Shown here: positions 8,273 to 23,560 of the stretch, piece after piece
Position numbering within the stretch: the first letter of the stretch is position 1
Layout of the letters: each line of letters starts with the position of its first letter
Source of the DNA: Bacillaceae bacterium IKA-2
GTDB taxonomy: Bacteria > Bacillota > Bacilli > Bacillales > Anaerobacillaceae
Length of the DNA: 64,000 nucleotides
NCBI GenBank assembly: GCA_031761875.1
Contig: CP134492.1
Coordinates: 3,720,001 to 3,784,000 of the forward strand
Reading direction: 5' to 3'
Notes under the pieces: generated by a model
Seen by the model: only the letters and a program-made list of their open reading frames with translations
Database searches by the model: none
Told to the model about the DNA's origin: nothing
Program-made: the position numbers and the translations under genes

Positions 8273-8301
8273 TTGCAAATTTTGTTATAACCAGTTATTA
8301 T
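8273..8301 (+). promoter_or_regulatory. Putative promoter with operator in the spacer, CoA-transferase operon
   Basis: A -35-like TTGCAA (8273-8278) and a -10-like TATTAT (8296-8301) are 17 bases apart. The spacer holds the palindrome GTTATAAC (8284-8291), read on the minus strand as AACTGGTTATAACA. The same 13-base motif AASTGGTTATAAY lies in the oppA promoter (about 19730) and upstream of the second AtuA gene (20850). Inference: an operator of the GntR regulator encoded at 19992. Confidence 0.45.
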
Positions 8302-9636: not shown

Positions 9637-9650
9637 GAGGAAGACAATTG

Positions 9651-10862
9651 ATGAATTTTAAATTTTCTGAAGAACAAGAAATGGTAAGAAAGATGGTACG
9701 TAATTTTGTTGATAAGGAGATCATGCCTCATATTGGTGAGTGGGATGCAAAAAGCCACTTTGAAGTAGGAATTATGAAGCGTCTTGCAGAACTAGATTTA
9801 ATGGGTGTCTGTATACCAGAAGAATATGGCGGAAGCGGGATGGATTATAATACACTAGCGATCGTTTGTGAAGAGTTAGAACGTGGTGATACGGCGTTTA
9901 GGACAGCGGTATCTGTTCATATCGGTCTGAGTAGTTTAACGCTCTTACAGTGGGGAAATGAGTATCAAAAACAAAAATACCTAGTCCCACAAGCTAAGGG
10001 TGAAAAGATTGGTGCATTTGGGCTTACTGAACCGAATGCCGGATCTGATGTTGCTGCATTACAAACAACAGCAGTAAAAGATGGCGATGATTATATTCTT
10101 AATGGTTCAAAAACATGGATTTCCCTTTGTGACCATGCCGATAATTTCCTTGTCTTTGCTTATACAGATAAGAGCAAAAAACAAAAAGGTATTTCGGCCT
10201 TTATTGTCGAAAGAACGATGCCTGGTTTCTCTTCTAAAGCCATTAAAGGTAAGTTAGGAATTCGTGCGGGAAATACAGGTGAGACTTTCTTTGAAGATGT
10301 AAGGGTTCCGAAAGAAAATTTACTTGGTGAAGAAGGAGAAGGATTCAAAATTGCTATGGCAGCACTTGATAACGGGAGATTTACGGTCGCAGCTGGGGCT
10401 AGCGGGCAAATTATGGCTTGTTTAGAAGCGAGCGTTTCTTATTGCCATGAAAGAAGTACATTTGGTAAAGAAATTGGGAAACATCAATTAGTCCAACAAA
10501 TGATCGCTAATATGGAAGCTGGATTACAAATGTCACGTCTCCTCGTCTATAAGGCTGGATGGCTTAAAAATGAAGGCGAACGAAACACAAAGGAAACTTC
10601 GCTTGCAAAATGGCAAGCTTGTAATTTTGCAAATCAAGCAGCTAACGATGCTGTCCAAATTTATGGTGCCTATGGCTATTCGAACGAATACCCTGTTGAA
10701 CGTTACTTGAGAAATTCTAAAGCACCAGTTATATATGAAGGAACTAGAGAAATTCATACGCTCATGCAAGCAGATTATGTATTAGGGTATCGTCAAGATA
10801 AACCGATTTCAAAAAAATTACCTGCTTGGCCTTTTGAAGCTGCTACAGACAAAGTTAAATAA
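9651..10862 (+). CDS. Acyl-CoA dehydrogenase family protein
   Basis: FAD enzyme that introduces an alpha,beta double bond into acyl-CoA and passes electrons to ETF. It has 403 residues from the ATG at 9651; a TTG at 9648 directly before it is also possible (AGGAGG at 9635). Family features: GAFGLTEPNAGSDVAAL, the KTWIS segment, FGKEIGKHQLVQQMIA, and the catalytic glutamate in VIYEGTREIHTLMQADYVLG (about residue 363). The glutaryl-CoA/short-branched subfamilies look similar, so chain specificity is open. It is co-transcribed with the CoA-transferase. The electron acceptor may be a conventional ETF encoded elsewhere; the FixAB proteins in this window belong to a different, bifurcating type. Confidence 0.93.
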   Translation: MNFKFSEEQEMVRKMVRNFVDKEIMPHIGEWDAKSHFEVGIMKRLAELDLMGVCIPEEYGGSGMDYNTLAIVCEELERGDTAFRTAVSVHIGLSSLTLLQWGNEYQKQKYLVPQAKGEKIGAFGLTEPNAGSDVAALQTTAVKDGDDYILNGSKTWISLCDHADNFLVFAYTDKSKKQKGISAFIVERTMPGFSSKAIKGKLGIRAGNTGETFFEDVRVPKENLLGEEGEGFKIAMAALDNGRFTVAAGASGQIMACLEASVSYCHERSTFGKEIGKHQLVQQMIANMEAGLQMSRLLVYKAGWLKNEGERNTKETSLAKWQACNFANQAANDAVQIYGAYGYSNEYPVERYLRNSKAPVIYEGTREIHTLMQADYVLGYRQDKPISKKLPAWPFEAATDKVK

Positions 10863-11081: not shown

Positions 11082-11133
11082 AAAAAAAGCACTTCACTTC
11101 TCTTTAATAACAAAGAAGTGAAGTGCTTTTTTT
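11082..11133. terminator. Bidirectional Rho-independent terminator
   Basis: A perfect 20-base stem (arms 11082-11101 and 11114-11133, core AGCACTTCACTTCT) is flanked by A and T runs on both sides. It lies between the converging acyl-CoA dehydrogenase and amidotransferase genes. Confidence 0.9.
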
Positions 11134-11872
11134 ATTTCTTATTTTGGCTATATAATTTTGTAGCTTCATACATACTAGTAAATAAATTGGACCAACTAGA
11201 ATCTTTTTTCCATAGTTTCTCTGGATGAAACTGTAATCCAATTAACCATGGATGCTCTTCTCCTTCAATTGCTTCGATAATGTCATCCTCTATTGATAAG
11301 GCGGATACTTTTAACCCCTCACCTAAACGGTCTATACATTGGCGGTGGAAAGAGTTTACTTTTACTGCTTTTTTTCCAAGGATATTTCCAAGCAGACTGC
11401 TTGTTTCAACTTTTAGTTCATGAGTTGGCGTATCCCCAGGAATATTATTTTTTTCTTGATGATGTTCAATTATACTTTCTATACTTTTTAATGTCCCACC
11501 ACAAACCTCGTTAATCATTTGTTTGCCTCTACAAACTCCGAGGATGGGGATTTCTAGAGGCAGAGCTTCCTCTAGTAAGCTTAACTCAAAATTATAACGC
11601 TCACTTCCGGTATCTTTTAATCCAAGTGATACATTCGATGATTTTTTTAACGGTAAAAATCCACCTCCTGATATTAATAGACCGTCTAGCTTACCTAAAT
11701 AACTTTGTATTTCAGACCTATCAGAGATTGGCGGTAATATAATTGGTATCATATTATGGCTTTGTAAAGCTTCTATATAATGACGTTCTATATAGAGAAG
11801 AGGGTGATTTGGATAAATATCTTGAAGCTCACCTTTATCAATATGAGTTGTAACACCAATCCACGGTTTCAT
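11132..11872 (-). CDS. Class I glutamine amidotransferase-like protein (peptidase C26, gamma-glutamyl hydrolase type)
   Basis: A 246-residue protein of the PuuD-like gamma-glutamyl-GABA hydrolase / peptidase C26 group. The catalytic triad is visible: the nucleophile Cys in GVCRGKQ (C114), and His plus Glu in LQFHPEK near the C-terminus. The oxyanion region ISGGG (residues 68-72) and NSFHRQ are also typical. Family members cleave gamma-glutamyl amide bonds, as in the gamma-glutamyl putrescine pathway. No putrescine genes are adjacent; it sits downstream of the AtuA-a/DUF4387-a pair on the same strand, separated by an R1 repeat, so it may be a separate transcription unit. Its substrate could be a gamma-glutamylated compound brought in by the neighbouring ABC importer, but this is speculation. 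Confidence 0.85.
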   Translation of the reverse strand: MKPWIGVTTHIDKGELQDIYPNHPLLYIERHYIEALQSHNMIPIILPPISDRSEIQSYLGKLDGLLISGGGFLPLKKSSNVSLGLKDTGSERYNFELSLLEEALPLEIPILGVCRGKQMINEVCGGTLKSIESIIEHHQEKNNIPGDTPTHELKVETSSLLGNILGKKAVKVNSFHRQCIDRLGEGLKVSALSIEDDIIEAIEGEEHPWLIGLQFHPEKLWKKDSSWSNLFTSMYEATKLYSQNKK

Positions 11873-11926: not shown

Positions 11927-12037
11927 TGAATTTCATCATACCAATAATTAACCACATACAGCTACATCTAGTTGAGAACCGTTCAACTCAACTAGATGTA
12001 GCCTCTTAGTGGCATTGAATCAGGATGATGAAATTCA
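11927..12037. repeat. MITE-like dispersed repeat R1, copy 2 (long form)
   Basis: Terminal inverted repeats TGAATTTCATCAT (11927-11939) and ATGATGAAATTCA (12025-12037) enclose the inner hairpin CTACATCTAGTTGA/TCAACTAGATGTAG and a TTAGTGGC segment as in copy 1. The right end abuts the TAA stop (12038-12040) of the DUF4387-a gene. Confidence 0.85.
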
Positions 12038-12358
12038 TTAAACCGGAATTTCAATTCCTAATAGCGGAGAATACTGCTGACAACCAAATATGTCTCGATC
12101 ACCAAAACTACCACTGCGAATCGTTCGGTAAATGGTAAATTTTATCGCAAATGCAGGGTCGTATTCAACAAAATCACAAATTCTCTCTAATGGTATGTTA
12201 TATAACTTTGCTACTGTTTCTTTCGTAATACAGCGACTTTCCTTTACTAGTTCATAATTCTCTCTGCCCCTGAAAATAATATCAAAGGTAATTTTATCTG
12301 TACTGGCATTCTTGCTTCTAATCGTCTTAGCTAAATCTATCAACATTTTTGTTTTCAT
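12038..12358 (-). CDS. DUF4387 family protein, copy a
   Basis: A small cytoplasmic protein of 106 residues with no signal or membrane segment. The near N-terminal TIRSKNASTDKITFDIIF block is the conserved signature of DUF4387. It is the downstream partner of an AtuA-like protein gene (21 bases apart) and is closely similar to the second copy at 22308-22631 (TIRSKNAGTDRITFDIIF). DUF4387 genes are commonly found next to or fused with AtuA-like/DUF1446 genes, so the two proteins probably act as one enzyme or complex. The reaction is not known to me. The start ATG at 12358 follows GGGAGGG. The R1 repeat inserts directly at its stop codon. Confidence 0.82.
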   Translation of the reverse strand: MKTKMLIDLAKTIRSKNASTDKITFDIIFRGRENYELVKESRCITKETVAKLYNIPLERICDFVEYDPAFAIKFTIYRTIRSGSFGDRDIFGCQQYSPLLGIEIPV

Positions 12359-12379
12359 GATTATTCCCTCCCTTTCTTA

Positions 12380-13765
12380 TTATTTGTGCGCTACAGATTT
12401 CCCTACTTCTATCAGTTCTACATTAAACAACTCTAGAGGATCATCAACAGGAATTATGTGGTGAATTGTCCAATCGTAAGCTGCTGTTGCTGGTAGCGCC
12501 TCGTCAATAATAAATGATGCTCCTCCGGCCGTTCCTTTAACTTCTGGAAGTCTAGCATAAAAAATCTGTCTAGATGCCATCAAGGCTATCTCCTCAGCTA
12601 CTGCTTTTGTTGGTGCAACTGCTTCGATAATGATACACAGTTCATGAGGTACTACGTCTTTTACAGGTTCTAAATCTCCCATTACTCCGTTCTTCCCAAA
12701 TATTTTATAATCTACATAATACTTTAAATCTGGAAAGCTCTCATGAATTTGATCTTTTGCCCATTGAATGACTTTATCAATATTTTCTATCGTATAAGGA
12801 TCTCGGATACCTGCAAAGCTGTAAAATCTCTCCCCAAGTTTCCCAGCACCCTCCAATTTCACTTTCACTTTCCCTTCAATTGGGAAAAACTCTGGCCCTG
12901 TGATACGACAAGTTTTTTCATTAAACTGCTCATATGAGCAGTTTGTCATATCTAACATTCCGCCTGCTACATACTCAAAAAATGGATTTGAGCGCTCATA
13001 CATCGCATGGCCAGCTACAGACGAAACTGTACAAAACTGCTCTGGGTGCATGGCTTCAACTTTTACATCATCTTGTGTAATCGTTCCAATGACACTTTCT
13101 TTAGCCCCATAAGGTTCAGCACAAAAGGACGCACATTCTAACAACTTCCCTAAATAATAAGATAAACTTTCTGGAAACCCTTCTCTAATCGCCGGTGCTC
13201 CAAAGACAGCACAATCACTAGATCGGCCACCTATAATTACATCAGCCCCCAAATCCAAAGCCTTAATATAAGGGTGGACTCCTGCTACAGCAACTATTCT
13301 ATCTGTTTTTTCAAGTTCATCCAACGTTAGATTATCCCTGCCATCTAATCCTTCAAAAGCTATTCCGTTATTCATTTTATTGATCAAGTAATCTTTATCT
13401 ACTTCAGAATAAAAGTAGGCTAACTTAAAATTTGGTATGTCATGTTTTTCTGCTAAATCTTTAATTATTTGAACATACATATCGACTCTACTATTTGAAC
13501 CAGTATCTCCTGCCGAGCCAATGATCATTGGCACCCCTTGCTCACGTGATGCCAGCAACATTAATTCAAGATCGTGTTTTTGCCATTCATACATACTTGA
13601 AGATTGATCTGAACCCAAAGGCGCCGGGCCAATGTCATCACTTCCTGAATCAGCACAATAATAATCTGGAAAGGTTGCTTTACCTATTTTAAAACTTTCT
13701 ACCTTCGTTTTCCCAAACCCCAACGCACCATTTGGACAGATAATTGATAATTTTTTTTTGCTCAT
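12380..13765 (-). CDS. AtuA-like (DUF1446) protein, copy a
   Basis: A 461-residue protein of the acyclic terpene utilisation AtuA-like / DUF1446 family. The start is the ATG at 13765, with GGAGGG eight bases upstream; a TTG at 13798 lacks a ribosome site. Conserved segments are an N-terminal CPNGALGFG, DYYCADSGSDDIGPAPLGSD, IIGSAGDTGSNSRVD, DVIIGGRSSDCAVFGAPA and a C-terminal LPEVKGTAG. The repeated Gly/Ser/Asp loops look like a ligand- or phosphate-binding site. The second copy at 20905-22287 is alike along its full length. AtuA was named from the Pseudomonas terpene-degradation cluster, but its chemical role there is not established. Here it follows the ABC importer on the same strand (36 bases from dppF), so its substrate probably arrives through that importer. 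Confidence 0.85.
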   Translation of the reverse strand: MSKKKLSIICPNGALGFGKTKVESFKIGKATFPDYYCADSGSDDIGPAPLGSDQSSSMYEWQKHDLELMLLASREQGVPMIIGSAGDTGSNSRVDMYVQIIKDLAEKHDIPNFKLAYFYSEVDKDYLINKMNNGIAFEGLDGRDNLTLDELEKTDRIVAVAGVHPYIKALDLGADVIIGGRSSDCAVFGAPAIREGFPESLSYYLGKLLECASFCAEPYGAKESVIGTITQDDVKVEAMHPEQFCTVSSVAGHAMYERSNPFFEYVAGGMLDMTNCSYEQFNEKTCRITGPEFFPIEGKVKVKLEGAGKLGERFYSFAGIRDPYTIENIDKVIQWAKDQIHESFPDLKYYVDYKIFGKNGVMGDLEPVKDVVPHELCIIIEAVAPTKAVAEEIALMASRQIFYARLPEVKGTAGGASFIIDEALPATAAYDWTIHHIIPVDDPLELFNVELIEVGKSVAHK

Positions 13766-13801
13766 AATACTTTCCCTCCGTTTATTCATTTTCTTCAAAA
13801 G

Positions 13802-14809
13802 TTATTCGTTATATAAGTGACAGGCTGCACCATGTCCGTCTTTTTCAGTCCATTTCGGTTGAACCTGCTCACAAATTTCTCCAATTTTCAAAAAGCAACG
13901 AGTGTGAAATTTACACCCTTTTGGTGCATCTGTTGGTGTCGGAACCGTTCCAGTTAAGATAATTCGTTCTTTAGCATTTATTCTTTCATCTTTATCGACA
14001 ATCGGAATTGATGATAAAAGCGATTGTGTGTATGGATGCAAAGGATTATTAAATAATTCTTTCGTCTCAGCCAATTCAACTATTTCTCCCAAATACATAA
14101 CAGCTACCCTATCGCTAACGTAATGAACAACACTTAAGTCATGTGCGACAAACAGATAGGTTAAATCTAATTCTTCTTTTAAATCTTCTAATAAATTTAT
14201 GATTTGCGCTTGTACTGAAACGTCTAGAGCTGATACGGGTTCATCTGCTACTATGAATTCTGGATTCATAGCTATCGTTCGTGCAATCCCAATTCTTTGG
14301 CGTTGCCCACCACTAAATTGGTGAGGATAATTGTCCATATGTCGTTTATTTAAACCAACCTTGTCAAGCAAGGAAATTATTTCTCGCTCTTGATCAATGA
14401 AATTTGTTACCCCCCTACTTTGTAACGCAACTTGGATAATCTCGCGAACAGTTTTCCTTGGATTTAATGAAGCATATGGGTTTTGGAAAATAATCTGCGC
14501 TTTTTGACGAAAAGACTTTAATTCATTATTATCAAATTTTGATATATCTTCATTTCTGTAAAGAATTTTCCCGTCAGTTATCTCGTGTAACCTAATAATT
14601 GCTCTACCAAGAGTTGATTTACCACAACCACTTTCTCCAACGATGCTTAATGTTTCTTTGGGGCGGATATCCAAGTTAATACCATCAACTGCGTAAACGG
14701 TTTGATCTTTCTTGCCTGCTAATTTTTTTTCTAAGAAGGAGGATTTTTTAAGAAAATGCTTCTTAACTCCTCTAAGTTTAATGAGCGGTTCTACTTCGTT
14801 GCTTTTCAT
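13802..14809 (-). CDS. Oligopeptide/dipeptide ABC transporter ATP-binding protein (DppF/OppF type)
   Basis: A 335-residue cytoplasmic ATPase. It has Walker A GESGCGKS, the Q-loop in IFQNPYASLNPR, signature FSGGQRQRIGIART, Walker B plus DEPVSALD and the H-loop VAHDLS. The C-terminal oligopeptide/dipeptide extension carries the Cys motif PKGCKFHTRCF...C. It is the second ATPase of a full Opp/Dpp importer; its start overlaps the end of the DppD-type gene by four bases (ATGA). Confidence 0.95.
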   Translation of the reverse strand: MKSNEVEPLIKLRGVKKHFLKKSSFLEKKLAGKKDQTVYAVDGINLDIRPKETLSIVGESGCGKSTLGRAIIRLHEITDGKILYRNEDISKFDNNELKSFRQKAQIIFQNPYASLNPRKTVREIIQVALQSRGVTNFIDQEREIISLLDKVGLNKRHMDNYPHQFSGGQRQRIGIARTIAMNPEFIVADEPVSALDVSVQAQIINLLEDLKEELDLTYLFVAHDLSVVHYVSDRVAVMYLGEIVELAETKELFNNPLHPYTQSLLSSIPIVDKDERINAKERIILTGTVPTPTDAPKGCKFHTRCFLKIGEICEQVQPKWTEKDGHGAACHLYNE

Positions 14810-15813
14810 TGCACCTCACTTCCTTTCTCATATAAAACACATCGCACTTGATGATGATTTCCTAAATCAGTCATCTCTATTGGTCTAAGACAAGATGGAT
14901 TTGCATGAGGACACCTCGAATAATATGGACAATCATCACCTAATTCGAATAAATCTATTACGCTACCCGGAATCGGTTCAATCTTCTCTTTCTCATTTGT
15001 GATACGTGGAATAGATTTAAATAGTCCTTGAGTGTATGGGTGCTTGGGATTTTTAATAACATCTTCAGTAACACCTTGCTCTACAATTACACCAGCGTAC
15101 ATTACCGTTATTTCATCACAAAATTCAGAAGCAACAGCTAAATCATGGGTCACAAGGATGATACTTGTTGATCGTTCTCTGTTGATTTTTTTTAGCAAAT
15201 CAAGAATCTGATTTTGTATCGTAACATCTAATGCTGTAGTTGGTTCATCTGCTAAAATTAATTCTGGTTCAGATGCTAAAGCCATTGCAATTAACATCCG
15301 TTGCTGCATACCCCCACTAAATTGATGTGGATAGTCATTGTAACGCTTTTCTGGTGAAGGTATTCCTACTTCAGCCATCAAACTATGAACGCGTTTTACT
15401 TCTTCTTTTTTCAAACCTAAGCGACGGAACCAACCCTTTATTTCAGGTTTAACAATACAATGATTGATTAATACTTCTCTAATTTGGTGACCTACTGAAT
15501 ATGCAGGATTTAATGTAGTCATCGGATCTTGGAAAATCATCGATATATCTCTGCCACGTATTTTTCGCCATTGTTCGTTTGAGTTTTTTACTTGATCCTT
15601 ACCATTAAAAAGTATATTTCCTTCGATAAGTTTTCCTGATTTCCCCAATAATCCAATAATAGAGAATAAAAATGAACTCTTACCGCATCCGGATTCTCCT
15701 ACTAAACCAACAATTTGTCCCTTTTTAACTTGTAAATTTGCTTTTCTAACAGCTTTTACAATCCCTTTTCCTGTCTCGTAACCAACAGTTAATCCATTTA
15801 TTTCAAGTGCCAT
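14806..15813 (-). CDS. Oligopeptide/dipeptide ABC transporter ATP-binding protein (DppD/OppD type)
   Basis: A 335-residue ATPase paired with the DppF-type subunit. Walker A is GESGCGKS, the signature FSGGMQQRMLIAMALA, and Walker B/D-loop ILADEPTTALD. The C-terminal Cys cluster DDCPYYSRCPHANPSCL is typical of OppD/DppD. The ATG at 15813 sits seven bases after GGAGG; a GTG directly before it (15816) is the alternative start. It overlaps the next gene by four bases. Confidence 0.95.
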   Translation of the reverse strand: MALEINGLTVGYETGKGIVKAVRKANLQVKKGQIVGLVGESGCGKSSFLFSIIGLLGKSGKLIEGNILFNGKDQVKNSNEQWRKIRGRDISMIFQDPMTTLNPAYSVGHQIREVLINHCIVKPEIKGWFRRLGLKKEEVKRVHSLMAEVGIPSPEKRYNDYPHQFSGGMQQRMLIAMALASEPELILADEPTTALDVTIQNQILDLLKKINRERSTSIILVTHDLAVASEFCDEITVMYAGVIVEQGVTEDVIKNPKHPYTQGLFKSIPRITNEKEKIEPIPGSVIDLFELGDDCPYYSRCPHANPSCLRPIEMTDLGNHHQVRCVLYEKGSEVQ

Positions 15814-15829
15814 CACAATCCCTCCTTCC

Positions 15830-16771
15830 TTATCTTTTAGTCTTCAATCGAGGGTCTAGAAGATCTCTTAATCCTTCTCCAAACAAGTTAATACTCAATA
15901 CTAAAATTAGTAAGGCAATTCCTGGAAACGTCGAAAGCCACCAGCCATTTAGAATATAATCTCTTCCTGAAGCAATCATCGATCCCCAAGCAGGTGTAGG
16001 CGGTTGTATTCCTAATCCTAGGAAACTTAAAGAAGATTCCATAATCATCATATAACCTAATCGCAAAGTTGCTAGCACAACAATTGAATGGACAATATTG
16101 GGTAAAATTTCACTTATTATTATAAGATACTTAGGTCTACCTAATGATTTGGCTGCTTCCACATATTCCTTAGACTGCTCTCCCATAACTTCACCACGTG
16201 ATATTCTAAAGAATTCAACCCAACCTTTAAAAGCTAAAGCAAAGATTAGATTAATAAATCCAGGCCCTAAAAATGCCATCATACCGATTGCAAAAATAAG
16301 AAAAGGAAATGCAAGCAGTAAATCTGCAAGTCGGGAAACAATACTATCAAACCAACCTCTAAAATAACCTGCGATTAACCCTAATAGTGTTCCAAAAACA
16401 ACAGATATCGTCGTTACGATCACACCAACCGCCAAAGATACTCGGGTACCATAGATGATTCTTGACAATAAATCCGTACCCTGTTGATCAGTTCCCAATA
16501 TGTTTTCCCAACTACCTCCCTCTAACCAAGCTGGGGGGGCAATTCTATTTGTCAAGTCACCTGTAACATGACTTTGTGGAGCAATATATGGAGCAAAGAT
16601 AGCCAATATGAAGTAGATAATAATAATAATTAATCCCCCCACGACTGACGGGTGCTTAGAAATGCTTTTTAAAAATTCTTTTGTATTTCTTAAGAACTTT
16701 TTTATTTTGTACATTGTTTGATTAGTAATGATAGTTTCTTCCTCTTCTTGTACTTCTTTGTTAGGAATCAT
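15830..16771 (-). CDS. ABC transporter permease (DppC/OppC type)
   Basis: A 313-residue inner-membrane subunit. The ATG at 16771 is chosen because GGAGG lies six to seven bases upstream; the longer frame to 16789 starts inside that ribosome site. It has an N-terminal cytoplasmic segment, a first membrane helix, the OppC N-terminal domain with NILGTDQQGTDLLSRIIYGTRVSL, and the EAA loop EYVEAAKSLGRPKYLIIISEILPN that contacts the ATPases. It works with the DppB-type permease encoded just upstream. Confidence 0.94.
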   Translation of the reverse strand: MIPNKEVQEEEETIITNQTMYKIKKFLRNTKEFLKSISKHPSVVGGLIIIIIYFILAIFAPYIAPQSHVTGDLTNRIAPPAWLEGGSWENILGTDQQGTDLLSRIIYGTRVSLAVGVIVTTISVVFGTLLGLIAGYFRGWFDSIVSRLADLLLAFPFLIFAIGMMAFLGPGFINLIFALAFKGWVEFFRISRGEVMGEQSKEYVEAAKSLGRPKYLIIISEILPNIVHSIVVLATLRLGYMMIMESSLSFLGLGIQPPTPAWGSMIASGRDYILNGWWLSTFPGIALLILVLSINLFGEGLRDLLDPRLKTKR

Positions 16772-16796
16772 TATATCCTCCCCCCGCATCTCATAT

Positions 16797-17807
16797 TTAC
16801 ATCCCGATTCTCGGGTTCAAATATGTGTAAATAATATCTACCATTAAATTTATTAAAACAAATACAATCGCATAAAACATAACTACACCTTGAACCAACG
16901 GATAATCTCTATTAAATATTCCTTCAACGACAAGTCTACCTAATCCAGGCCATCCAAAAACAGTTTCTACTAACATATTACCTCCCAATAATGCACCGAT
17001 TTCTAGACCTACTACTGTAATTGTAGGAATTAGTGCATTACGCAGAGTATGAATCATGATTACTCTCCATTCTTTAAGGCCTTTAGCCCTAGCCAATTTA
17101 ACATAATCCATTTGCAAGGCTTCCAGCATACTTGATCGTACAACTCGAGCGACAATTGCTCCCATAGCAGCCCCTAACGTTATAGCTGGAAGGATTAAGT
17201 GATTAGCAGCATTTTTAAAGCCTTCCCAATTTAGGGTTAGCAAACTGTCTAACAAATATAGACCGGTGATTGTTTGTATATCAATTCCAAAATCTAAGCG
17301 TCCTTTAACTGGAGTCCATCCTAATTTAACAGAAAATATTAAGATCAAAACTATTCCTAACCAAAAGGGTGGAACTGATATTCCGAAAAAAGAACCTCCC
17401 ATACCTAACCGATCTATAAAACTATTTTGTTTAACTGCTGAGTAAACACCGATCGGTATTCCTACTAGTAAGGCAAAAAACATTGCTGCTAAAGCAAGTT
17501 CTACCGTTGCAGCCGTTGTTCTTGCAATTAAAGTAGTAACAGGTTGGCCTTTATTATATGAGTTACCCAAATCTCCTTTCAATATTCCACCACCATAATC
17601 AACCAATTGAATGTGGAGGGGTTTATCCAAACCTAGTTCTGACGTAAGGTTATCAATTTCTGCTTGAGATACGTTTCCTGCATTACCCATCATCATGTCT
17701 ACTGGGTCACCAGGAGTTAATCTCATAAATAGAAAAACAATCAAAGCAACGCCTAACATTATCGGTATCGCAACTAAAATTCGCTCTAGTACTTTAATTG
17801 ATCTCAT
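16797..17807 (-). CDS. ABC transporter permease (DppB/OppB type)
   Basis: A 336-residue membrane subunit with the DppB N-terminal helix, FMRLTPGDPVD, and the EAA-type loop DYVKLARAKGLKEWRVIMIHTLRNA. The C-terminus ends in the family-typical YTYLNPRIGM. It follows the solute-binding gene after a terminator-like hairpin and is 25 bases from the DppC-type gene. Confidence 0.95.
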   Translation of the reverse strand: MRSIKVLERILVAIPIMLGVALIVFLFMRLTPGDPVDMMMGNAGNVSQAEIDNLTSELGLDKPLHIQLVDYGGGILKGDLGNSYNKGQPVTTLIARTTAATVELALAAMFFALLVGIPIGVYSAVKQNSFIDRLGMGGSFFGISVPPFWLGIVLILIFSVKLGWTPVKGRLDFGIDIQTITGLYLLDSLLTLNWEGFKNAANHLILPAITLGAAMGAIVARVVRSSMLEALQMDYVKLARAKGLKEWRVIMIHTLRNALIPTITVVGLEIGALLGGNMLVETVFGWPGLGRLVVEGIFNRDYPLVQGVVMFYAIVFVLINLMVDIIYTYLNPRIGM

Positions 17808-17835
17808 ATTTGTTCTTTATCCTCCTTTCAAAAAT

Positions 17836-17872
17836 AAAAAATAGGGGCCGAACCCCTATTTTTTATTTAAAT
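17836..17872 (-). terminator. Intra-operon attenuating terminator between solute-binding and permease genes
   Basis: On the minus strand AAATAGGGG-TTCGG-CCCCTATTT forms a strong stem followed by TTTTATTTTT. Its place between the binding-protein gene and the permease genes would let partial read-through give an excess of binding protein. Confidence 0.85.
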
Positions 17873-17886
17873 TTGAGCACTATCTA

Positions 17887-19479
17887 TTATTCAGACATCG
17901 TCGCATGAGGCATATACAACATTCCATCTGGACTAGGTGCCCAGTTACCAAGTTGTTTCACTCCAGCTTCAAGCTCCTGCATAACAAAACTAAATACCCA
18001 CGGAGCTTCAACATAGATAATTTCTTGAGCTTCATAGTAAATTTCTTCCCTCTTTGTAACATCATCTTCTGACATACCAGCATTTAGCAATTCATCGACT
18101 CTATCGTTACTATATTGGCTAAAATTTCCACGTGCATCAGTCACTAATTTGGCATCTAAAAAACCAAATGGATCTAGTGCTGAAGCACCCCAATCATCAA
18201 TGGACATTATTCTCTCACCATTGAGTAACATCGGTCTGATGACTCCTGCATCCCAAATTCGTGAACTTGCATCAATACCAATTTCTCTCAATTGTGGAGC
18301 TACAGCTTCAGCGATATCTCTAAACGTCTCATGCGTATCGATCACAACTTGAAACCCATCTTCATACCCAGCTTCAGCTAATAGTTGTTTCGCTTTTTCA
18401 GGGTTGTATTCATAAGGTTGAAGATCCTCATTAATCCCAAAAGAACTATGAAGTAAGGCTCCATTTGTTCTTGAAGCGTAACCACCTAATATTGCATCTA
18501 TAACTAAATCCATATTAATTGCATGATTCATCGCTTGACGAACTCTTACATCATCAAATGGTGGTTCCAGCGTATTCATTTCCATCATCGTAACTCTAGT
18601 ACCTTCAGATACTTTTACTTCTATATTCGCATCGTTTTCAAGTACGCTGACAAGATCAGGCGATATACCTGTTATCCTTTGAACTTCGCCAGCCTGCAAA
18701 GCAGCTATACGTGATGACACTTCAGGTATTACATCAAAAACTAAGTTTTTGATACTTGGTGCACCTTCATAATAATCATCAAAGCGCTCAAATACGATCC
18801 GCTCATCAAGTTCTGCACTAACAAACTTATATGGTCCAGCACCAATTGGATTCTCTCTCCACTCAGGATCCCCTACTTCTTCTATATAAGCTTGAGGTAA
18901 TATTTGTTGATGAGGAATCATTTTTAATAAAATCGGCCAAGGTTCAGCTAACAAAAACTTAACTGTGTAGTCATCTACTAGTTCTACTCCTTCAACAGGG
19001 CCCATTAAGCCTAAACGTGGAGAAGTTTCACCCGCCATAGCACCCTCTTTTATGATTCTATCAAATGTAAATTTAACGTCATGAGCTGTAAGATCACTTC
19101 CATCATGAAATTTTACTCCTTCACGAATATTAAAAATCCATTCAGTTGGAGTCGTATTTTCCCACGATTCAGCAATTTTAGGGATAATCTCTCCGTCAAC
19201 ACCAAGCATAACTAAACCATCATAGAGATTACGTAAAACTGATTCAGTTGTACGATCACGATGATTAGCTGGGTCAAGAGTGAGTATCGAGGATCTAATT
19301 CCGGTTATAACGTTCGAGTCAACTTGTTCTGATAAACTTCCCTCATTTTCTTCAACATTATTTTGGGAATTATCATTTTTGGCAGTATCTTCTGGCTCAT
19401 CATTTGATGAACACGCTGTCATAAATAACAGAAGTGACAAAATAACGGAAAATAATAAAATGAAATTCTTTCTTTTCAT
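17887..19479 (-). CDS. Extracellular solute-binding lipoprotein (family 5, DppA/OppA type)
   Basis: The receptor of the ABC importer, 530 residues. A lipoprotein signal peptide ends LLLFMTAC (Cys at about residue 23), followed by an acidic, Asn-rich linker. The mature protein has family 5 features: VITGIRSSILTLDPANH, then FNIREGVKFHDGSDLTAHDVKFTFDRI, the SBP_bac_5 signature. Family 5 receptors bind di- and oligopeptides but also opines, nickel, sugars and other organic ligands, so ligand identity cannot be assumed. It is the first gene of an operon that continues through the two permeases, two ATPases, AtuA-a and DUF4387-a. Confidence 0.93.
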   Translation of the reverse strand: MKRKNFILLFSVILSLLLFMTACSSNDEPEDTAKNDNSQNNVEENEGSLSEQVDSNVITGIRSSILTLDPANHRDRTTESVLRNLYDGLVMLGVDGEIIPKIAESWENTTPTEWIFNIREGVKFHDGSDLTAHDVKFTFDRIIKEGAMAGETSPRLGLMGPVEGVELVDDYTVKFLLAEPWPILLKMIPHQQILPQAYIEEVGDPEWRENPIGAGPYKFVSAELDERIVFERFDDYYEGAPSIKNLVFDVIPEVSSRIAALQAGEVQRITGISPDLVSVLENDANIEVKVSEGTRVTMMEMNTLEPPFDDVRVRQAMNHAINMDLVIDAILGGYASRTNGALLHSSFGINEDLQPYEYNPEKAKQLLAEAGYEDGFQVVIDTHETFRDIAEAVAPQLREIGIDASSRIWDAGVIRPMLLNGERIMSIDDWGASALDPFGFLDAKLVTDARGNFSQYSNDRVDELLNAGMSEDDVTKREEIYYEAQEIIYVEAPWVFSFVMQELEAGVKQLGNWAPSPDGMLYMPHATMSE

Positions 19480-19719
19480 ATTACCCCTCCTAAATTTGAT
19501 TTATCAAATACTAGATGTAAACATTCATTCTGTTGGTGTTTGGGATTAACTGTTTAGCAATTTGTCGTTCACTACAGTGCCATCTGAGGCACTTGTAACA
19601 AAGCCGTCAAAAACAAACTTGATATAACAATACAAAATTAAATTACTACATCAAAGCTCCCCTTTCTGAAATTAATTGTATTTTCTTTGTATTCAAAAGA
19701 TACTGACAACTTAATTTAG

Positions 19720-19749
19720 ATTATAAGTGGTTATAATGTGTACTGTCAA
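19720..19749 (-). promoter_or_regulatory. Promoter of the ABC/AtuA-a operon with operator in the spacer
   Basis: On the minus strand TTGACA (19744-19749) and TATAAT (19720-19725) are perfect consensus boxes with an 18-base spacer. The spacer contains the palindrome-like GTTATAAT (19730-19737) within AAGTGGTTATAAT. A repressor bound there would block RNA polymerase. The predicted leader is about 230 bases long; I saw no riboswitch fold in it. Confidence 0.72.
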
Positions 19750-19949
19750 TACCTTTATTTATTTTTAATAAAACTGCTAAATTGTACTAAATTTGTTGTT
19801 ATTGTACTAAATTAATAGTTATTTTACTTATAATGATGTTATAGTATTATATAAATAAGGTGTTAACATTTTCTTTAATACCAGCTAATTTAAGGTGCTT
19901 AATAATCTATTAACCTTAATAATTGCACAAACATAAGAGCTTGCCTACA

Positions 19950-19957
19950 GTTATAAT
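19950..19957 (+). promoter_or_regulatory. Possible autoregulatory operator upstream of gntR
   Basis: GTTATAAT lies 35 bases before the gntR start, between TTGCCT (19941) and a TATATC-like -10. It matches only the 8-base core of the motif and may be coincidence. Confidence 0.3.
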
Positions 19958-19991
19958 CTGTTATATCTAACGTAAAAAGGAAGGTGATAAA

Positions 19992-20735
19992 ATGTTCCTA
20001 GATCGTAATAGTGCCACTCCATTATATGAACAGTTAAAAAAAGTAATTGAACACCAAATTAAAACTGGAGAATTGAAAGTTGATGAACAACTCCCCTCTG
20101 AAAGAGAGCTTTGTGAACTGTATAAAGTAAGTAGAATTACGGTTCGTCAAGCAATTTCATTAGCAGGAAATGAAGGTTTATTATATAGGAAACATGGGAT
20201 CGGTACGTTTATTACAAAACCAAAAATTAAGGTAGAATTAAGCACAGTAGATAATTTTCAAACTTCATTATCCCAACAGGGTCTGATCGCAAAGACAGAA
20301 AAATGGAGTTCTGATATTATATCCTCTAACTTTCAAACTTCTCGAGTTTTAAACGTGAGTATTATGGAAAAAATTGCAAACCTCAAGCTAGTTGGTTTTG
20401 CTGACGATAGTCCATTTGTTTTTTATGATAGTTATTTCACTTATGAGATAGGAAAAAAAATATTAATAGCCGCTGAAGAGGCTCTCTTAAAGAATATGCC
20501 ATTTTCGACACTGGATTTGTACAAAGGAATTCTAGAAGTTTCTCCGACTCATATAGAACAAACTTTTGAGGCACATGTTTCAAACGAACATTTATCTAAA
20601 ATATTAAAAATTGAACACGGGTCGCCGATTCTTCGAGTAACTTCTATCGTCTACAGTAATGACAAGCCTATTGAATACAGGGAAAATCATTATCGAGGAG
20701 ATAAATATAAATTCTTCGTTACACGGAATTTGTAA
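19992..20735 (+). CDS. GntR family transcriptional regulator, HutC/UTRA subfamily
   Basis: A 247-residue regulator. The N-terminal winged helix (residues 8-73) has the GntR signature ATPLYEQLKKVIEHQI, LPSERELCELYKVSRITVRQAI and GIGTFI. The C-terminal UTRA ligand-binding domain ends with the typical PIEYRENHYRGDKYKF. HutC-type regulators usually repress the adjacent transport and catabolic genes until a small-molecule effector binds. It lies between the divergent ABC importer operon and the second AtuA/DUF4387 pair, and candidate operators GTTATAAY occur in the promoters on both sides and at the CoA-transferase operon. Confidence 0.93.
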   Translation: MFLDRNSATPLYEQLKKVIEHQIKTGELKVDEQLPSERELCELYKVSRITVRQAISLAGNEGLLYRKHGIGTFITKPKIKVELSTVDNFQTSLSQQGLIAKTEKWSSDIISSNFQTSRVLNVSIMEKIANLKLVGFADDSPFVFYDSYFTYEIGKKILIAAEEALLKNMPFSTLDLYKGILEVSPTHIEQTFEAHVSNEHLSKILKIEHGSPILRVTSIVYSNDKPIEYRENHYRGDKYKFFVTRNL

Positions 20736-20748
20736 TTAAATATCATTT

Positions 20749-20783
20749 AAACCTATCAAACAACATTTGATAGGTTTTTTTAA
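20749..20783 (+). terminator. Rho-independent terminator of gntR
   Basis: A perfect 12-base stem AAACCTATCAAA/TTTGATAGGTTT (20749-20760 with 20766-20777) with a five-base loop, followed by T residues. It ends the gntR transcript, so AtuA-b needs its own promoter. Confidence 0.9.
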
Positions 20784-20806
20784 ATATATTTTTTTAAAAA
20801 TTCTAA

Positions 20807-20857
20807 TTGACAAAATAGTGAAAACGTTTTAAGCTTTGAGTAACAAGTGGTTATAAC
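20807..20857 (+). promoter_or_regulatory. Control region of the AtuA-b operon: -35 box, cre site and operator
   Basis: TTGACA at 20807-20812 is a perfect -35; the -10 17 bases later (TAAGCT) is poor. TGAAAACGTTTTAA (20819-20832) matches the CcpA cre consensus TGWAANCGNTNWCA at all but one position. AAGTGGTTATAAC with the perfect palindrome GTTATAAC (20850-20857) follows. Together they suggest substrate-dependent induction plus carbon catabolite repression. Confidence 0.6.
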
Positions 20858-20904
20858 ATGTGATTACAAAAAATGTTTTAATTTTGAAAGGAGACTCATT
20901 AACT

Positions 20905-22287
20905 ATGAGAAAAAAAGAACTTCGCATCGTTTGTCCCAATGGACATTTAGGATTTGCACCAACGAAAGAGGAAAGTTTTTATATTGCCGCAGCAACAAAA
21001 CCGGATTACTATTGTTGTGACTCCGGAAGTGATGACATCGGCGCTTCTGCTCTTGGATCTGACAGATCTGTGAGTATGTACAAATGGCAGAAACATGATT
21101 TAGAACTTATGTTACTTGCAGCAATTGAACAGGGGGCTCCAATGTTAATTGGATCATCTGGCGATACTGGAGCAAATAGTCGTGTCGACATGTATGTTCA
21201 GATTATTAAAGATTTAGCAAAAGAACATAATCTACCTAGCTTCAAACTAGCTTACTTTTATTCAGAAGTAGACAAGAGTTATTTAAAAGACAAGATGCAA
21301 CAAGAGATTACAATTGAAGGTCTTGACGACAGAAGCTCGTTAACAGAAGCGGATCTTGAAAAAACAAACCGTATTGTCGCTGTTGCTGGTGTTCATCCAT
21401 TCATTAAAGCATTAGATATGGGTGCCGATGTAGTAATTGGCGGTCGTTCTAGTGATTGCGCAATTTTTGCCGCTCCCGCTATCCGTGAAGGTTTTCCAGA
21501 AGAGTTAGCCTATTATCTTGGAAAGGTTCTTGAATGCGCAAGCTTCTGTGCAGAACCTTATGGGGCAAAAGAAAGTGTCATTGGTACAATTACTCAAGAT
21601 GATGTCAAAGTAACCGCTATGCATCCAGAACAACGTTGTACAATTGCCTCTGTTGCAGGTCATGCCATGTATGAGCGTTCAAATCCCTATTTTGAATTTG
21701 TTGCTGGCGGAATGATGGATATGACACATTGTAAATATGAACAATTTGATGAAAAAACGACTAGAATTACTGGATCTAAATTTATTCCAATTGAAGGTGA
21801 AGTAAAAGTAAAATTAGAAGGGGCTGGCATACTCGGAGAGAAGTACATTGGAATTGCCGGGATAAGAGATCCTTATACGATTAAAAACGTCGATAAGGTA
21901 GTTGAACTAACCCGCGAACAAGTTGCTCAAGAGTTTGAAGGTCATGACTATCACTTGAATTTCAGAATATTCGGTAAAGATGGTGTAATGGGTGAATTAG
22001 AACCTGTTAAAGAAATTAAATCACATGAACTAGGTATTGTTATCGAAGGTATTGCAGCTACAAAAGAAGTTTCAGAAGCCCTTACATTATTTGCAACTAG
22101 ACAAATATTCTATGCTCGTTTACCAGAAGTAAAAGGCACAGCTGGTACAGCCGCATTTATTGTCGATGATGTTGTCTATGCTGGAAGCGCTTGTTCTTGG
22201 ACGATGAACCACATCGTTCCGGTTGCCGATCCATTAGAATTATTTGATGTAAAGCTAATCGAAATTAACAATACCATTAATGCCTAA
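20905..22287 (+). CDS. AtuA-like (DUF1446) protein, copy b
   Basis: A 460-residue paralogue of the 12380-13765 protein, collinear from end to end: CPNGHLGFA, DYYCCDSGSDDIGASALGSD, LIGSSGDTGANSRVD, DVVIGGRSSDCAIFAAPA and LPEVKGTAG. The start at 20905 is an ATG preceded by AAGGAGA at about ten bases; the frame upstream to 20860 has no ribosome site. Differences from copy a are scattered, as in functional paralogues, and no frame damage is seen. It is followed 20 bases later by its own DUF4387 partner. Function is unknown to me beyond family membership; the gene pair was probably duplicated as a unit. Confidence 0.85.
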   Translation: MRKKELRIVCPNGHLGFAPTKEESFYIAAATKPDYYCCDSGSDDIGASALGSDRSVSMYKWQKHDLELMLLAAIEQGAPMLIGSSGDTGANSRVDMYVQIIKDLAKEHNLPSFKLAYFYSEVDKSYLKDKMQQEITIEGLDDRSSLTEADLEKTNRIVAVAGVHPFIKALDMGADVVIGGRSSDCAIFAAPAIREGFPEELAYYLGKVLECASFCAEPYGAKESVIGTITQDDVKVTAMHPEQRCTIASVAGHAMYERSNPYFEFVAGGMMDMTHCKYEQFDEKTTRITGSKFIPIEGEVKVKLEGAGILGEKYIGIAGIRDPYTIKNVDKVVELTREQVAQEFEGHDYHLNFRIFGKDGVMGELEPVKEIKSHELGIVIEGIAATKEVSEALTLFATRQIFYARLPEVKGTAGTAAFIVDDVVYAGSACSWTMNHIVPVADPLELFDVKLIEINNTINA

Positions 22288-22307
22288 TAGAAAGGGGAAT
22301 GTACGCT

Positions 22308-22631
22308 ATGCAAACAAAAACACTTAATGATTTAGCAAAAACAATTCGTAGTAAAAATGCCGGTACTGATAGAATTACCTTTGATATTATCTTTAGAGAA
22401 AAAGAAAATTATGATCTTGTTATTAATAGTAAATGTATTACAAAAAAATCAGTTGCTAGTCTCTATGGAATTTCTGAAGAACAAATCACGGATTTTGTCC
22501 ATTTCGATCCTGCTTACGCCATTAAATTTACCATAAAAAGACCAAGACCAAGTGGGGACCCTGGCGAAGGTGATATTTTTGGATCACAACAATATCCGCC
22601 ATTATTAGATATTGAAATTCCTATTGCTTAG
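22308..22631 (+). CDS. DUF4387 family protein, copy b
   Basis: A 107-residue partner of AtuA-b. The ATG at 22308 aligns with the start of copy a and lies ten bases after GGGG; the ATG at 22299 is too close to the ribosome site. It has the same TIRSKNAGTDRITFDIIF signature, and the C-terminus SQQYPPLLDIEIP matches copy a (CQQYSPLLGIEIP). It is the last gene of the cluster, followed by a strong terminator. Confidence 0.83.
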   Translation: MQTKTLNDLAKTIRSKNAGTDRITFDIIFREKENYDLVINSKCITKKSVASLYGISEEQITDFVHFDPAYAIKFTIKRPRPSGDPGEGDIFGSQQYPPLLDIEIPIA

Positions 22632-22889: not shown

Positions 22890-22976
22890 TTAAACAAATC
22901 TGCGTTGGGTTGCAGCAGTTTCTGCGCAACTAGGAAGCTTCATGTGGCTAGTTTATTGGTATTATGAAACTCATTC
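22890..22976. repeat. MITE-like repeat R1, copy 3 (short form, left end decayed)
   Basis: Contains TCTGCGCAACTAGGAAGCTT, CATGTGGCTAGTTTATTGGT and the right end ATTATGAAACTCATTC (22961-22976), matching the short copy at 32051. The toxin stop codon TGA (22975-22977) lies inside this end. Confidence 0.7.
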
Positions 22977-23280
22977 ATTTAAGATGATTTTCTAAATTTA
23001 CTTTTGCATAAGTTATTCTGTGTATTTCTACTTCATCATTATTAACAACATAAAATACAAGATAGTTTTTCACTGGAAGTATTCTATACTCTCCATCAAC
23101 TGATTTTATTGGTTGATATACCTTAGATGAATACGGAAAATTCTCGAGTTTTGATATCGAAAAATCCAGTGCATCAATAAAATCTAAGGCAGCTTTTGGT
23201 GCCTTAAGTATATCAGTGATATAGTCTGTAATATTTCTTAGATCTTTTAGAGATATGGGTAGATATTTAATTTTATACAT
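22975..23280 (-). CDS. RelE/ParE family toxin
   Basis: A 101-residue protein starting MYKIKYLPISLKDLRNITDYI, with the RelE/ParE core ...YRILPVKNYLVFYVVNNDEVEIHRITYAK. ParE members poison gyrase and RelE members cut mRNA at the ribosome; which applies cannot be decided here. The ATG at 23280 overlaps the end of the antitoxin gene by eight bases, the usual arrangement; an upstream start at 23304 is unlikely. The stop codon is provided by the end of an R1 repeat. Confidence 0.88.
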   Translation of the reverse strand: MYKIKYLPISLKDLRNITDYITDILKAPKAALDFIDALDFSISKLENFPYSSKVYQPIKSVDGEYRILPVKNYLVFYVVNNDEVEIHRITYAKVNLENHLK

Positions 23281-23560
23281 CACCTTTATCCAACTTGTTA
23301 GCAAGCCTTACTCTTAAATCAGAAATTACTTCATCGTGTGTATATCGTTTATTAGTCGTTTTGGCTTCTAATTCCGCTTCCTTTAATTTGAAAAAGACCT
23401 CACTTTCAAAAAGTTTGCCTTCATAGGCTTCAATGCTCATAACAACCATATCACCATAACCATTCTTAGTTAAATATACTGGTTCAGCTGTTTCCCGTAC
23501 AATCCTTGAAATTTCCGCGAAATTATTTCTTAAATCTGAAACCGGTCGAATTTGTGGCAC
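23273..23560 (-). CDS. Phd/YefM family antitoxin
   Basis: A 95-residue protein. The N-terminal MPQIRPVSDLRNNFAEISRIV and the EPVYLTKNGYGDMVVMSIEAYE segment form the Phd/YefM DNA-binding fold; the C-terminus is charged and would wrap the toxin. It is the first gene of the toxin-antitoxin operon and probably autorepresses it. Confidence 0.9.
   Translation of the reverse strand: MPQIRPVSDLRNNFAEISRIVRETAEPVYLTKNGYGDMVVMSIEAYEGKLFESEVFFKLKEAELEAKTTNKRYTHDEVISDLRVRLANKLDKGDV

Follow-up and report, generated by a model that had tools for sequence, protein, structure and literature searches.

AtuA/DUF4387 gene pairs related to citramalate lyase in an importer, hydrolase and glutarate-type gene context of Bacillaceae bacterium IKA-2

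Proteins of the AtuA (DUF1446, PF07287) and DUF4387 (PF14330) families are encoded by two pairs of adjacent genes in a stretch of 64,000 nucleotides from Bacillaceae bacterium IKA-2 (GenBank assembly GCA_031761875.1, contig CP134492.1, positions 3,720,001 to 3,784,000 of the forward strand), which we call the window and in whose coordinates its features are given. Pfam labels DUF4387 as a family of unknown function and AtuA by the name of a pathway only. The closest described system is citramalate lyase CmlAB, known here from PDB entry titles and molecule names: the chains of 9ERQ and 9EVF are named citramalate lyase subunits A and B and form a heteromer of the AtuA plus DUF4387 type, and 9EVF, a structure released in 2025, is entitled "Citramalate lyase - ADP - pyruvate complex". 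Since this title names ADP, a nucleotide probably takes part in CmlAB catalysis. The original prediction, made from the window alone, held that the two families have no firmly assigned reaction and that they form a two-subunit enzyme; these entries make the first statement out of date and bear out the second. The fate of citramalate in Enterobacteriaceae was described as open in 2015, and a DUF1446 gene was noted beside that for methylaspartate ammonia-lyase (excerpt of PMC4682846).

Another named member of the family is the AtuA protein of acyclic terpene utilization, to which the acetate-releasing lyase step is assigned in a pathway whose enzymes are called characterized or tentatively identified (excerpt of PMC4847356). 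According to the same excerpt, the Thauera protein has 615 residues, acts on a CoA ester and works with a carboxylase and a hydratase. It resembles the window AtuA proteins as a PF07287 member by name and differs from them in its length and CoA-ester substrate; carboxylase and hydratase partners were not met among the genes typed here. In our comparison, both named activities may be viewed as releasing acetate from a HOOC-CH2-C(OH)< unit.

Glutarate catabolism, as outlined in excerpts of PMC5974017 and PMC6265302, proceeds by GlaH/CsiD and LhgO or by a CoA-transferase and glutaryl-CoA dehydrogenase, and its substrate enters mainly from lysine degradation. The words DUF1446 and DUF4387 do not occur in the searched text of these two papers. 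We propose that the IKA-2 locus is one regulon for the uptake and degradation of a compound whose carbon reaches glutarate via a CmlAB-like lyase, a reading to which we give a probability of roughly 0.55. The feature is real and conserved, and its family has a known relative in CmlAB; the context of importer, hydrolase and glutarate-type enzymes is new. The amide hydrolases, the link to glutarate, an operator consensus and a second CoA-transferase/acyl-CoA dehydrogenase set are additions to the original prediction. The cluster includes, beyond the range 12038-22631 noted originally, the genes of a C26 hydrolase (11132-11872) and of a CaiB-type CoA-transferase and an acyl-CoA dehydrogenase (ACAD; together 8449-10862), and every open reading frame (ORF) of it is present and intact at the coordinates given below.

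Relation of the two pairs to citramalate lyase

Copy a lies on the minus strand (DUF4387a, 12038-12358; AtuAa, 12380-13765, with an ATG behind GGAGG at 13765 and a mechanical ORF to 13798) and copy b on the plus strand (AtuAb, 20905-22287, with a likely ATG at 20905 and a mechanical ORF from 20860; DUF4387b, 22299-22631). The predicted large, CmlA-like subunits match PF07287 with 71.1 and 78.7 bits (gathering cut-off 22.8), and the small, CmlB-like ones match PF14330 with 121.5 and 125.3 bits (cut-off 27). The genes are separated by 21 bp in copy a and 11 bp in copy b, an arrangement of adjacent subunit genes as in CmlAB, and the two pairs had rightly been described as intact with gaps of about 20 bases. 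A genome search found two AtuA and two DUF4387 genes and no third of either kind in the 4.42-Mb own genome. For comparison, the best 80 of 221 relatives from one scan were collected with up to 10 kb on each side and combined with the window (26 kb) to give 81 loci; individual loci and genomes carry L and G numbers. Among the relatives the gap between AtuA and DUF4387 has a median of 13 bp and is at most 100 bp in 74 of 75 cases, with no DUF4387 cluster in six of the 80 AtuA loci.

In a phmmer search of the PDB (E <= 0.01), each subunit has one solved relative, the respective chain of 9ERQ/9EVF, with E-values of 2.8e-72 and 1.3e-72 for AtuA and of 1.1e-20 and 3.2e-23 for DUF4387. AlphaFold models of AtuAb (pLDDT 90.3) and DUF4387b (pLDDT 86.8) superimpose on chains A and B of 9EVF with TM-scores of 0.89/0.92 and 0.83/0.87, and no other PDB entry was found for either model at E <= 0.001 in the structure search. 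Both window subunits are thus predicted to have the same fold as the CmlAB subunits. Sequence identity amounts to 32-33% for AtuA and CmlA (33% being 144/438 columns) and to 40% for DUF4387 and CmlB. When 39 window-clade rows were aligned with 10 outgroup rows and CmlA, 55 columns proved conserved across all three groups at the thresholds used and 39 differed by clade; the charge changes among the latter include E (CmlA) to H at position 179 and G to R at 420.

A quick LG+G4 tree was calculated from 121 AtuA rows (122 were collected and one of fewer than 380 residues was dropped; L116 gave no AtuA ORF). One long internal branch, whose length of about 1.06 changes per column appears as 0.40 + 0.66 on the two sides of the midpoint root, divides the 33 rows that include CmlA from the 88 that include both window copies (100% SH-aLRT). 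The window pairs lie outside the clade of CmlA, which is flagged as a long branch and whose pairing with L052 is covered by a warning from the program. CmlAB and the window pairs are therefore alike in having a large subunit of AtuA fold and a small DUF4387 subunit, with the 55 columns in common, and unlike in clade and in neighbours, which in the window are transporters and glutarate-type enzymes.

The common fold, the conserved columns and the position of CmlAB as the only named close homologue with a structure would suit pairs that are plain citramalate lyases, cleaving citramalate to acetate and pyruvate, with the glutarate genes serving a co-imported second dicarboxylate; citramalate is also a C5 dicarboxylate. 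We regard this as unlikely. Because the window pairs and CmlA belong to different clades, citramalate as substrate is not transferable to the window pairs, the 39 clade-wide differences (with those at 179 and 420) argue in the same direction, and the glutarate link would be left unexplained. The row nearest to CmlA, L052 (53% identity), has a 2-hydroxycarboxylate transporter gene adjoining AtuA, a family that was not met among the typed neighbours of the window clade, for which no systematic search was made. This transporter gene is split into two ORFs (L052:11542-12845). A methylaspartate cluster around L052, guessed from gene lengths, was rejected, the typed genes being those of an MFS protein, an FCD-GntR regulator and the 2-hydroxycarboxylate transporter. 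No methylaspartate or mesaconate gene occurs among the typed window genes, and no genome-wide search for such genes was made. A different AtuA/DUF4387 clade, seen at L018:5339-9549 and in comparable loci of the taxonomic order, has genes for a ribokinase-like kinase and a sugar-type ABC importer behind it (these were typed in L018 only), and the family therefore probably has further substrates.

The two copies share 69% (AtuA) and 68% (DUF4387) identity, and the second had been taken for a simple duplicate of the first. This is doubtful: AtuAb falls in a 19-row set of copies from Bacilli and Actinomycetota (99*) that excludes AtuAa, and AtuAa, whose placement is weakly supported and in no starred set, is not its sister. 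A recent tandem duplication was accordingly rejected, the copies not being joined in the tree. The Bacilli copies with which AtuAb groups mostly have a TRAP-type permease as neighbour, with the exception of L081, which has an Opp importer, and in most Bacillaceae relatives the divergent operon encodes C26 and a TRAP-type permease, the latter mostly accompanied by a 104-residue protein. AtuAa has the order importer-AtuA-DUF4387-C26 that is also found in Peptococcaceae and Desulfosporosinus; L104 and, with larger gaps, L103 repeat the complete minus-strand order SBP5-DppB-DppC-OppD-OppF-AtuA-DUF4387-C26 of the window. The window locus thus appears to combine two layouts. The cluster is patchy: a search for DUF4387 found it in none of the other six genomes of the genus, two of which are just 62% and 80% complete, and in 38 of the 397 genomes sampled from the order.

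Glutarate-type enzymes in and beside the gene runs

Neighbourhoods were derived from our own ORF picking and BLAST clustering, with cluster labels that rest on one or a few typed members; genes on one strand with gaps of up to 120 bp were counted as a run, and 12 of the 20 unlabelled ORFs in AtuA runs were typed. Ten runs contain another recognised enzyme, and in six of these it is of glutarate type; the other four hold a D-glutamate-cyclase-like protein (L106), a URO-D-like protein (L111), a hexapeptide transferase (L087) and an aminotransferase (L133).

Three different glutarate-consuming sets adjoin the enzyme pair. The order AtuA-DUF4387-LhgO-(DUF3870)-CsiD is found in L078, L079 and L080, where 0-37 bp separate DUF4387 from LhgO and CsiD follows within about 290 bp of the preceding gene, and AtuA-DUF4387-CsiD-LhgO in L022. 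In L022 and L079, the two that were tested, GlaH scores 450 and 448 bits (cut-off 333) and LhgO 607 and 609 bits (cut-off 299). L077 has AtuA-DUF4387-CaiB-ACAD, whereas L140 and L148 have AtuA-DUF4387-ACAD-CaiB with 11 bp before ACAD and touching ACAD and CaiB genes. In L148 a single run reads OppDF-OppDF-AAT-sigma54-AtuA-DUF4387-ACAD-CaiB in BLAST-cluster labels. The L140 ACAD is 34% identical to that of the window; it matches glutaryl-CoA dehydrogenases in the PDB with 571-606 bits, behind the acyl-CoA dehydrogenase 4w9u with 695 bits, and the glutaryl-CoA dehydrogenase model NF045552 with 229 bits (cut-off 470). The ACADs of L128 and L106 were rejected as glutaryl-CoA dehydrogenases, being without the glutaryl-type Arg. 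Since the association of three such sets with one enzyme pair is hard to explain otherwise, glutarate or a near relative probably lies on the path. As far as the excerpts cited above describe it, known glutarate catabolism resembles the relatives' loci in that the same kinds of enzymes occur in or beside AtuA/DUF4387 runs, and differs on the entry side, which is mainly lysine there and an importer, an amide hydrolase and AtuA/DUF4387 here.

The association extends to whole genomes. Counting full-length matches only (49 of 58 genomes with any match), CsiD is present in six of eight window-clade genomes and in 43 of the 389 others among the 397 of the order (Fisher p 6e-5), and in one of 30 genomes with only other AtuA/DUF4387 clades. 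Clade labels were taken from the tree except in G136 (L063), where the contig end truncates AtuA and identity was used for the assignment. The two window-clade genomes without CsiD, G000 and G275, one of which is the genome studied here, have CaiB/ACAD in the cluster.

In the window, a probable succinyl-CoA:glutarate-type CoA-transferase of CaiB family III (8449-9636, plus strand; the ATG behind AGGAGG at 8449 was chosen within a mechanical ORF from 8371) is followed by ACAD (9648-10862, plus strand). The best family for CaiB is NF052585, succinate--glutarate CoA-transferase, with 472 bits (cut-off 750), and its best PDB match is human SUGCT, 9br6. ACAD scores 386 bits with NF045552 (cut-off 470) and 401 bits with an acryloyl-CoA reductase model (cut-off 640). 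It is a possible glutaryl-CoA dehydrogenase with both the Arg of FRTAVSV, which aligns with LRVQLNM in 3mpi and YRSMMSV in L140, and the catalytic Glu of the retained YEGT. We take this Arg to be the distal-carboxylate residue, as in the human glutaryl-CoA dehydrogenase.

A second set, CaiB-ACAD-DUF3870, is located at about 1.83 Mb of the own genome (1829860-1832794; L198:8861-11795), adjoining a class III aminotransferase and other genes, and is 91% identical in DNA over 2357 bases to window positions 8482-10837. The identity starts just inside CaiB, the upstream regions differ, and an operator-like site (see below) precedes CaiB only in the window copy; the second locus has two overlapping sites with 2 mismatches (L198:13553 and 13563) before an aminotransferase further on. 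We read the window set as a copy of a glutarate gene pair that was brought under this regulon. No DUF3870 relic was found behind the window ACAD. DUF3870 genes (L024:11416-11763, L066:1124-1444, L198:11400-11795 and L199:8652-9011) accompany both the LhgO/CsiD and the CaiB/ACAD modules with 63-78% mutual identity, and DUF3870 is a candidate for a third glutarate gene. In G006, a genome of the same genus (62% complete) in which DUF4387 was not found, CaiB-ACAD-DUF3870 is preceded by a gamma-aminobutyrate (GABA) transaminase gene (TIGR00700, 625 bits, cut-off 507), an arrangement that would suit conversion of 5-aminovalerate to glutarate.

Importer, hydrolase and operator-like motif

The family-5 ABC importer is complete and encoded in one minus-strand operon, as had been predicted: an SBP_bac_5 solute-binding protein with a lipobox recognised by eye (17887-19479), DppB-type (16797-17807; BPD_transp_1 at 16806-17462) and DppC-type (15830-16789; BPD_transp_1 at 15842-16393) permeases, and OppD-type (14806-15816) and OppF-type (13802-14809) ATPases. 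It has the five-gene set of the Opp/Dpp/Nik-type importers, and among binding proteins of known structure 5u4o, heme-binding protein A (6ofq) and DppA come closest to that of the window. The Peptidase_C26 gene (11132-11872, minus strand) encodes a class I glutamine-amidotransferase-like amide hydrolase with GVCRG and QFHPE motifs, seen by eye. Inverted repeats, also by eye, lie in the gap between ACAD and C26 (10863-11131) and in that between C26 and DUF4387a (11962-12003); the latter may separate C26 from the transcript of the importer operon. A further SBP_bac_5/permease/C26 group without AtuA is found at 3504921-3513020 of the own genome. Just downstream of the cluster, two small overlapping ORFs (22975-23560) resemble, by eye, a RelE/ParE-like toxin-antitoxin pair.

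The linkage of AtuA/DUF4387 to importer and hydrolase genes is far above chance and spans several phyla. Transporter genes of ten clusters occur in 77 of the 81 loci, or in 72 without the broad ABC-ATPase cluster (OppDF), which also collects ATPases of other systems (38 loci, 23 with SBP5); the predicted conservation of a DUF1446-DUF4387-transporter linkage thus holds. A C26, C45/AAT or Amidohydro_3 hydrolase is present in 51 of the 81. SBP5 was found in 23/81 loci against 1.6 expected and C26 in 33/81 against 1.0, at 18 kb per locus and with the densities of the own genome standing for all genomes (five SBP5 genes from six matches and three full-length C26 genes from eight). The importer type differs among loci (Opp, TRAP, DcuC, SSF, TctC, TAXI), and 51 of 80 AtuA runs contain no transporter cluster, observations that would be expected if a peptide importer/hydrolase system merely neighboured a metabolically separate AtuA/DUF4387 system. 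Such independence is highly improbable in view of the strength of the linkage in several phyla, the single runs that join AtuA with a transporter (29/80; with a hydrolase, 13/80) and the shared operator.

The peptide-type importer and the inclusion of PuuD among the relatives of C26 would also suit a different substrate class, namely gamma-glutamyl or D-glutamate/5-oxoproline-type compounds, for which C26 would be a gamma-glutamyl hydrolase, AtuA/DUF4387 would act on a glutamate-derived acid and the glutarate genes would form a side link. A PF14336 D-glutamate-cyclase-like gene stands directly behind AtuA/DUF4387 in L106 (10631-11662), and a member of the same BLAST cluster directly behind DUF4387 in L114. 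However, this cluster is rare, being found in three of 81 loci (L098 is the third) with only the L106 member typed; the window C26 reaches 75 bits with the PuuD gamma-glutamyl-GABA hydrolase model NF008471 (cut-off 266); and GlaH, LhgO and CaiB/ACAD in the same runs would remain unexplained. We consider a gamma-glutamyl system improbable. Two further associations were discarded: the genes behind DUF4387 in L067, supposed from their ORF length to encode CoA-transferase subunits, encode deoxynucleoside kinases, and the GABA transaminase and succinate-semialdehyde dehydrogenase genes in L153 are separate and further away.

The regulator gene (19992-20735, plus strand) encodes a protein with GntR and UTRA domains. 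Its earlier designation as HutC-type is valid as a domain label only, as the HutC equivalog TIGR02018 gives 107 bits (cut-off 220). This regulator is present in 33 of the 80 related loci and presumably binds the motif TTATAACNNGTTATAA. In the window, sites with 1 mismatch lie 5' of CaiB (TTATAACCAGTTATTA, 8285-8300, plus strand) and between the importer operon and gntR (19721-19736), and weaker ones with 2 mismatches just 5' of gntR (19951-19966) and 5' of AtuAb (20851-20866); these are four sites against 0.68 expected, and one of 100 shuffles had as many. The site before CaiB agrees with the earlier claim that the CoA-transferase/ACAD operon shares the motif. The perfect palindrome at 19720 was rejected as a consensus, with 122 genome matches at 3 mismatches against 216 for a control, and the better consensus TTATAACNNGTTATAA came from a footprint in other genomes, where its sites mark AtuA, GntR and importer promoters. 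The 80 loci without the window (1.41 Mb) contain ten exact sites in eight loci, all with this GntR, and none of the ten lies more than 250 bp upstream of a core-gene start or more than 60 bp inside the gene. Allowing 1 mismatch raises the number of sites to 20, of which 19 are placed in this way (14 loci, 13 with the GntR). Three control patterns gave no exact site and a single one with a mismatch, which is not at a core gene. As the consensus was refined on the same loci, the count of sites is descriptive only, and the controls and the placement are the test.

The own genome holds three places with up to 1 mismatch, two in the window cluster and one inside a coding start. This third site (518552) was taken as chance; the ORF whose start encloses it looks MmgE/PrpD-like by eye. 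The surrounding region (510500-528500, L177) has ORFs that appear, by eye, opine-dehydrogenase-like and MmgE/PrpD-like, beside others that look, also by eye, like an RpiR-type regulator and a TRAP/TAXI importer; the two enzyme-like ORFs gave no NCBIfam match at E 1e-20.

A possible route to glutarate

In the proposed pathway, the compound would enter through the family-5 importer, probably in part as a conjugate of amide or peptide-like type, and the C26 hydrolase would take off the amide part upstream of the lyase. Each AtuA/DUF4387 pair would be a heteromeric, nucleotide-dependent carbon-carbon lyase of the CmlAB type, presumably using ATP/ADP, that splits a hydroxy acid carrying a carboxylate beta to its carbinol carbon into a short carboxylate and an oxo product. 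The relevant product may be glutarate or may lead to it; the CaiB CoA-transferase would then make glutaryl-CoA and ACAD would oxidise it, with GlaH and LhgO probably taking the place of CaiB/ACAD in some relatives. The UTRA-type GntR would control the whole set through TTATAACNNGTTATAA. The import-to-oxidation pathway suggested originally is in good part supported: homology, fold, linkage, the shared promoter motif and the glutarate-type enzymes of related operons come from the computation itself, whereas activity, nucleotide use, substrate and product are proposals.

Several points weigh against this pathway. To our knowledge, no common nutrient can be named that citramalate-like cleavage would turn into glutarate, and by chemical reasoning a CmlAB-type retro-aldol reaction would give glutarate only from a glutarate substituted with a hydroxyalkyl group at C2, for example homoisocitrate. 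CmlA itself is 33% identical and of the other clade, with the 39 clade-wide substitutions separating the groups. The D-glutamate-cyclase-like genes would fit a glutamate-type substrate equally well. The clusters of CaiB, ACAD, LhgO, CsiD and DUF3870 are present in only 11 of the 81 loci, or nine without L106 and L128. CaiB and ACAD of both the window and L140 score below the NCBIfam equivalog cut-offs, and the first NCBIfam and PDB matches of the window ACAD are other acyl-CoA dehydrogenases. CaiB genes at E <= 1e-150 are common (66 of the 397 order genomes), so that the presence of CaiB alone says little. CsiD stands beside the pair in three of the six window-clade genomes that have it and elsewhere in the genome in the other three; the genomes behind the Fisher p of 6e-5 lack independence (G023 and G067 belong to one family); and, because the AtuA proteins of L078, L079, L082 and L084 are identical to those of the loci in G117, G033, G275 and G067, the two lines of evidence, gene runs and genome counts, overlap. 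Finally, the three own-genome places of the motif compare with six for the reversed control, so that only their placement speaks for an operator.

More generally, we tentatively suggest that the 88-row clade is a second kind of AtuA/DUF4387 lyase, which would act, with nucleotide activation, on an imported and amide-trimmed hydroxy di- or tricarboxylate to give glutarate or one of its precursors. Such an entry to glutarate catabolism would be undescribed and would extend over at least Bacillota, Actinomycetota, Pseudomonadota, Thermodesulfobacteriota and Deinococcota, combined in each case with varying importers and hydrolases. The locus gives this sister clade of CmlAB a narrow and testable role, with a defined operator, importers, an amide hydrolase and glutarate-type enzymes. 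If the proposal is true, bacteria would have a route to glutarate other than that from lysine, together with a CoA-independent way of cleaving carbon-carbon bonds.

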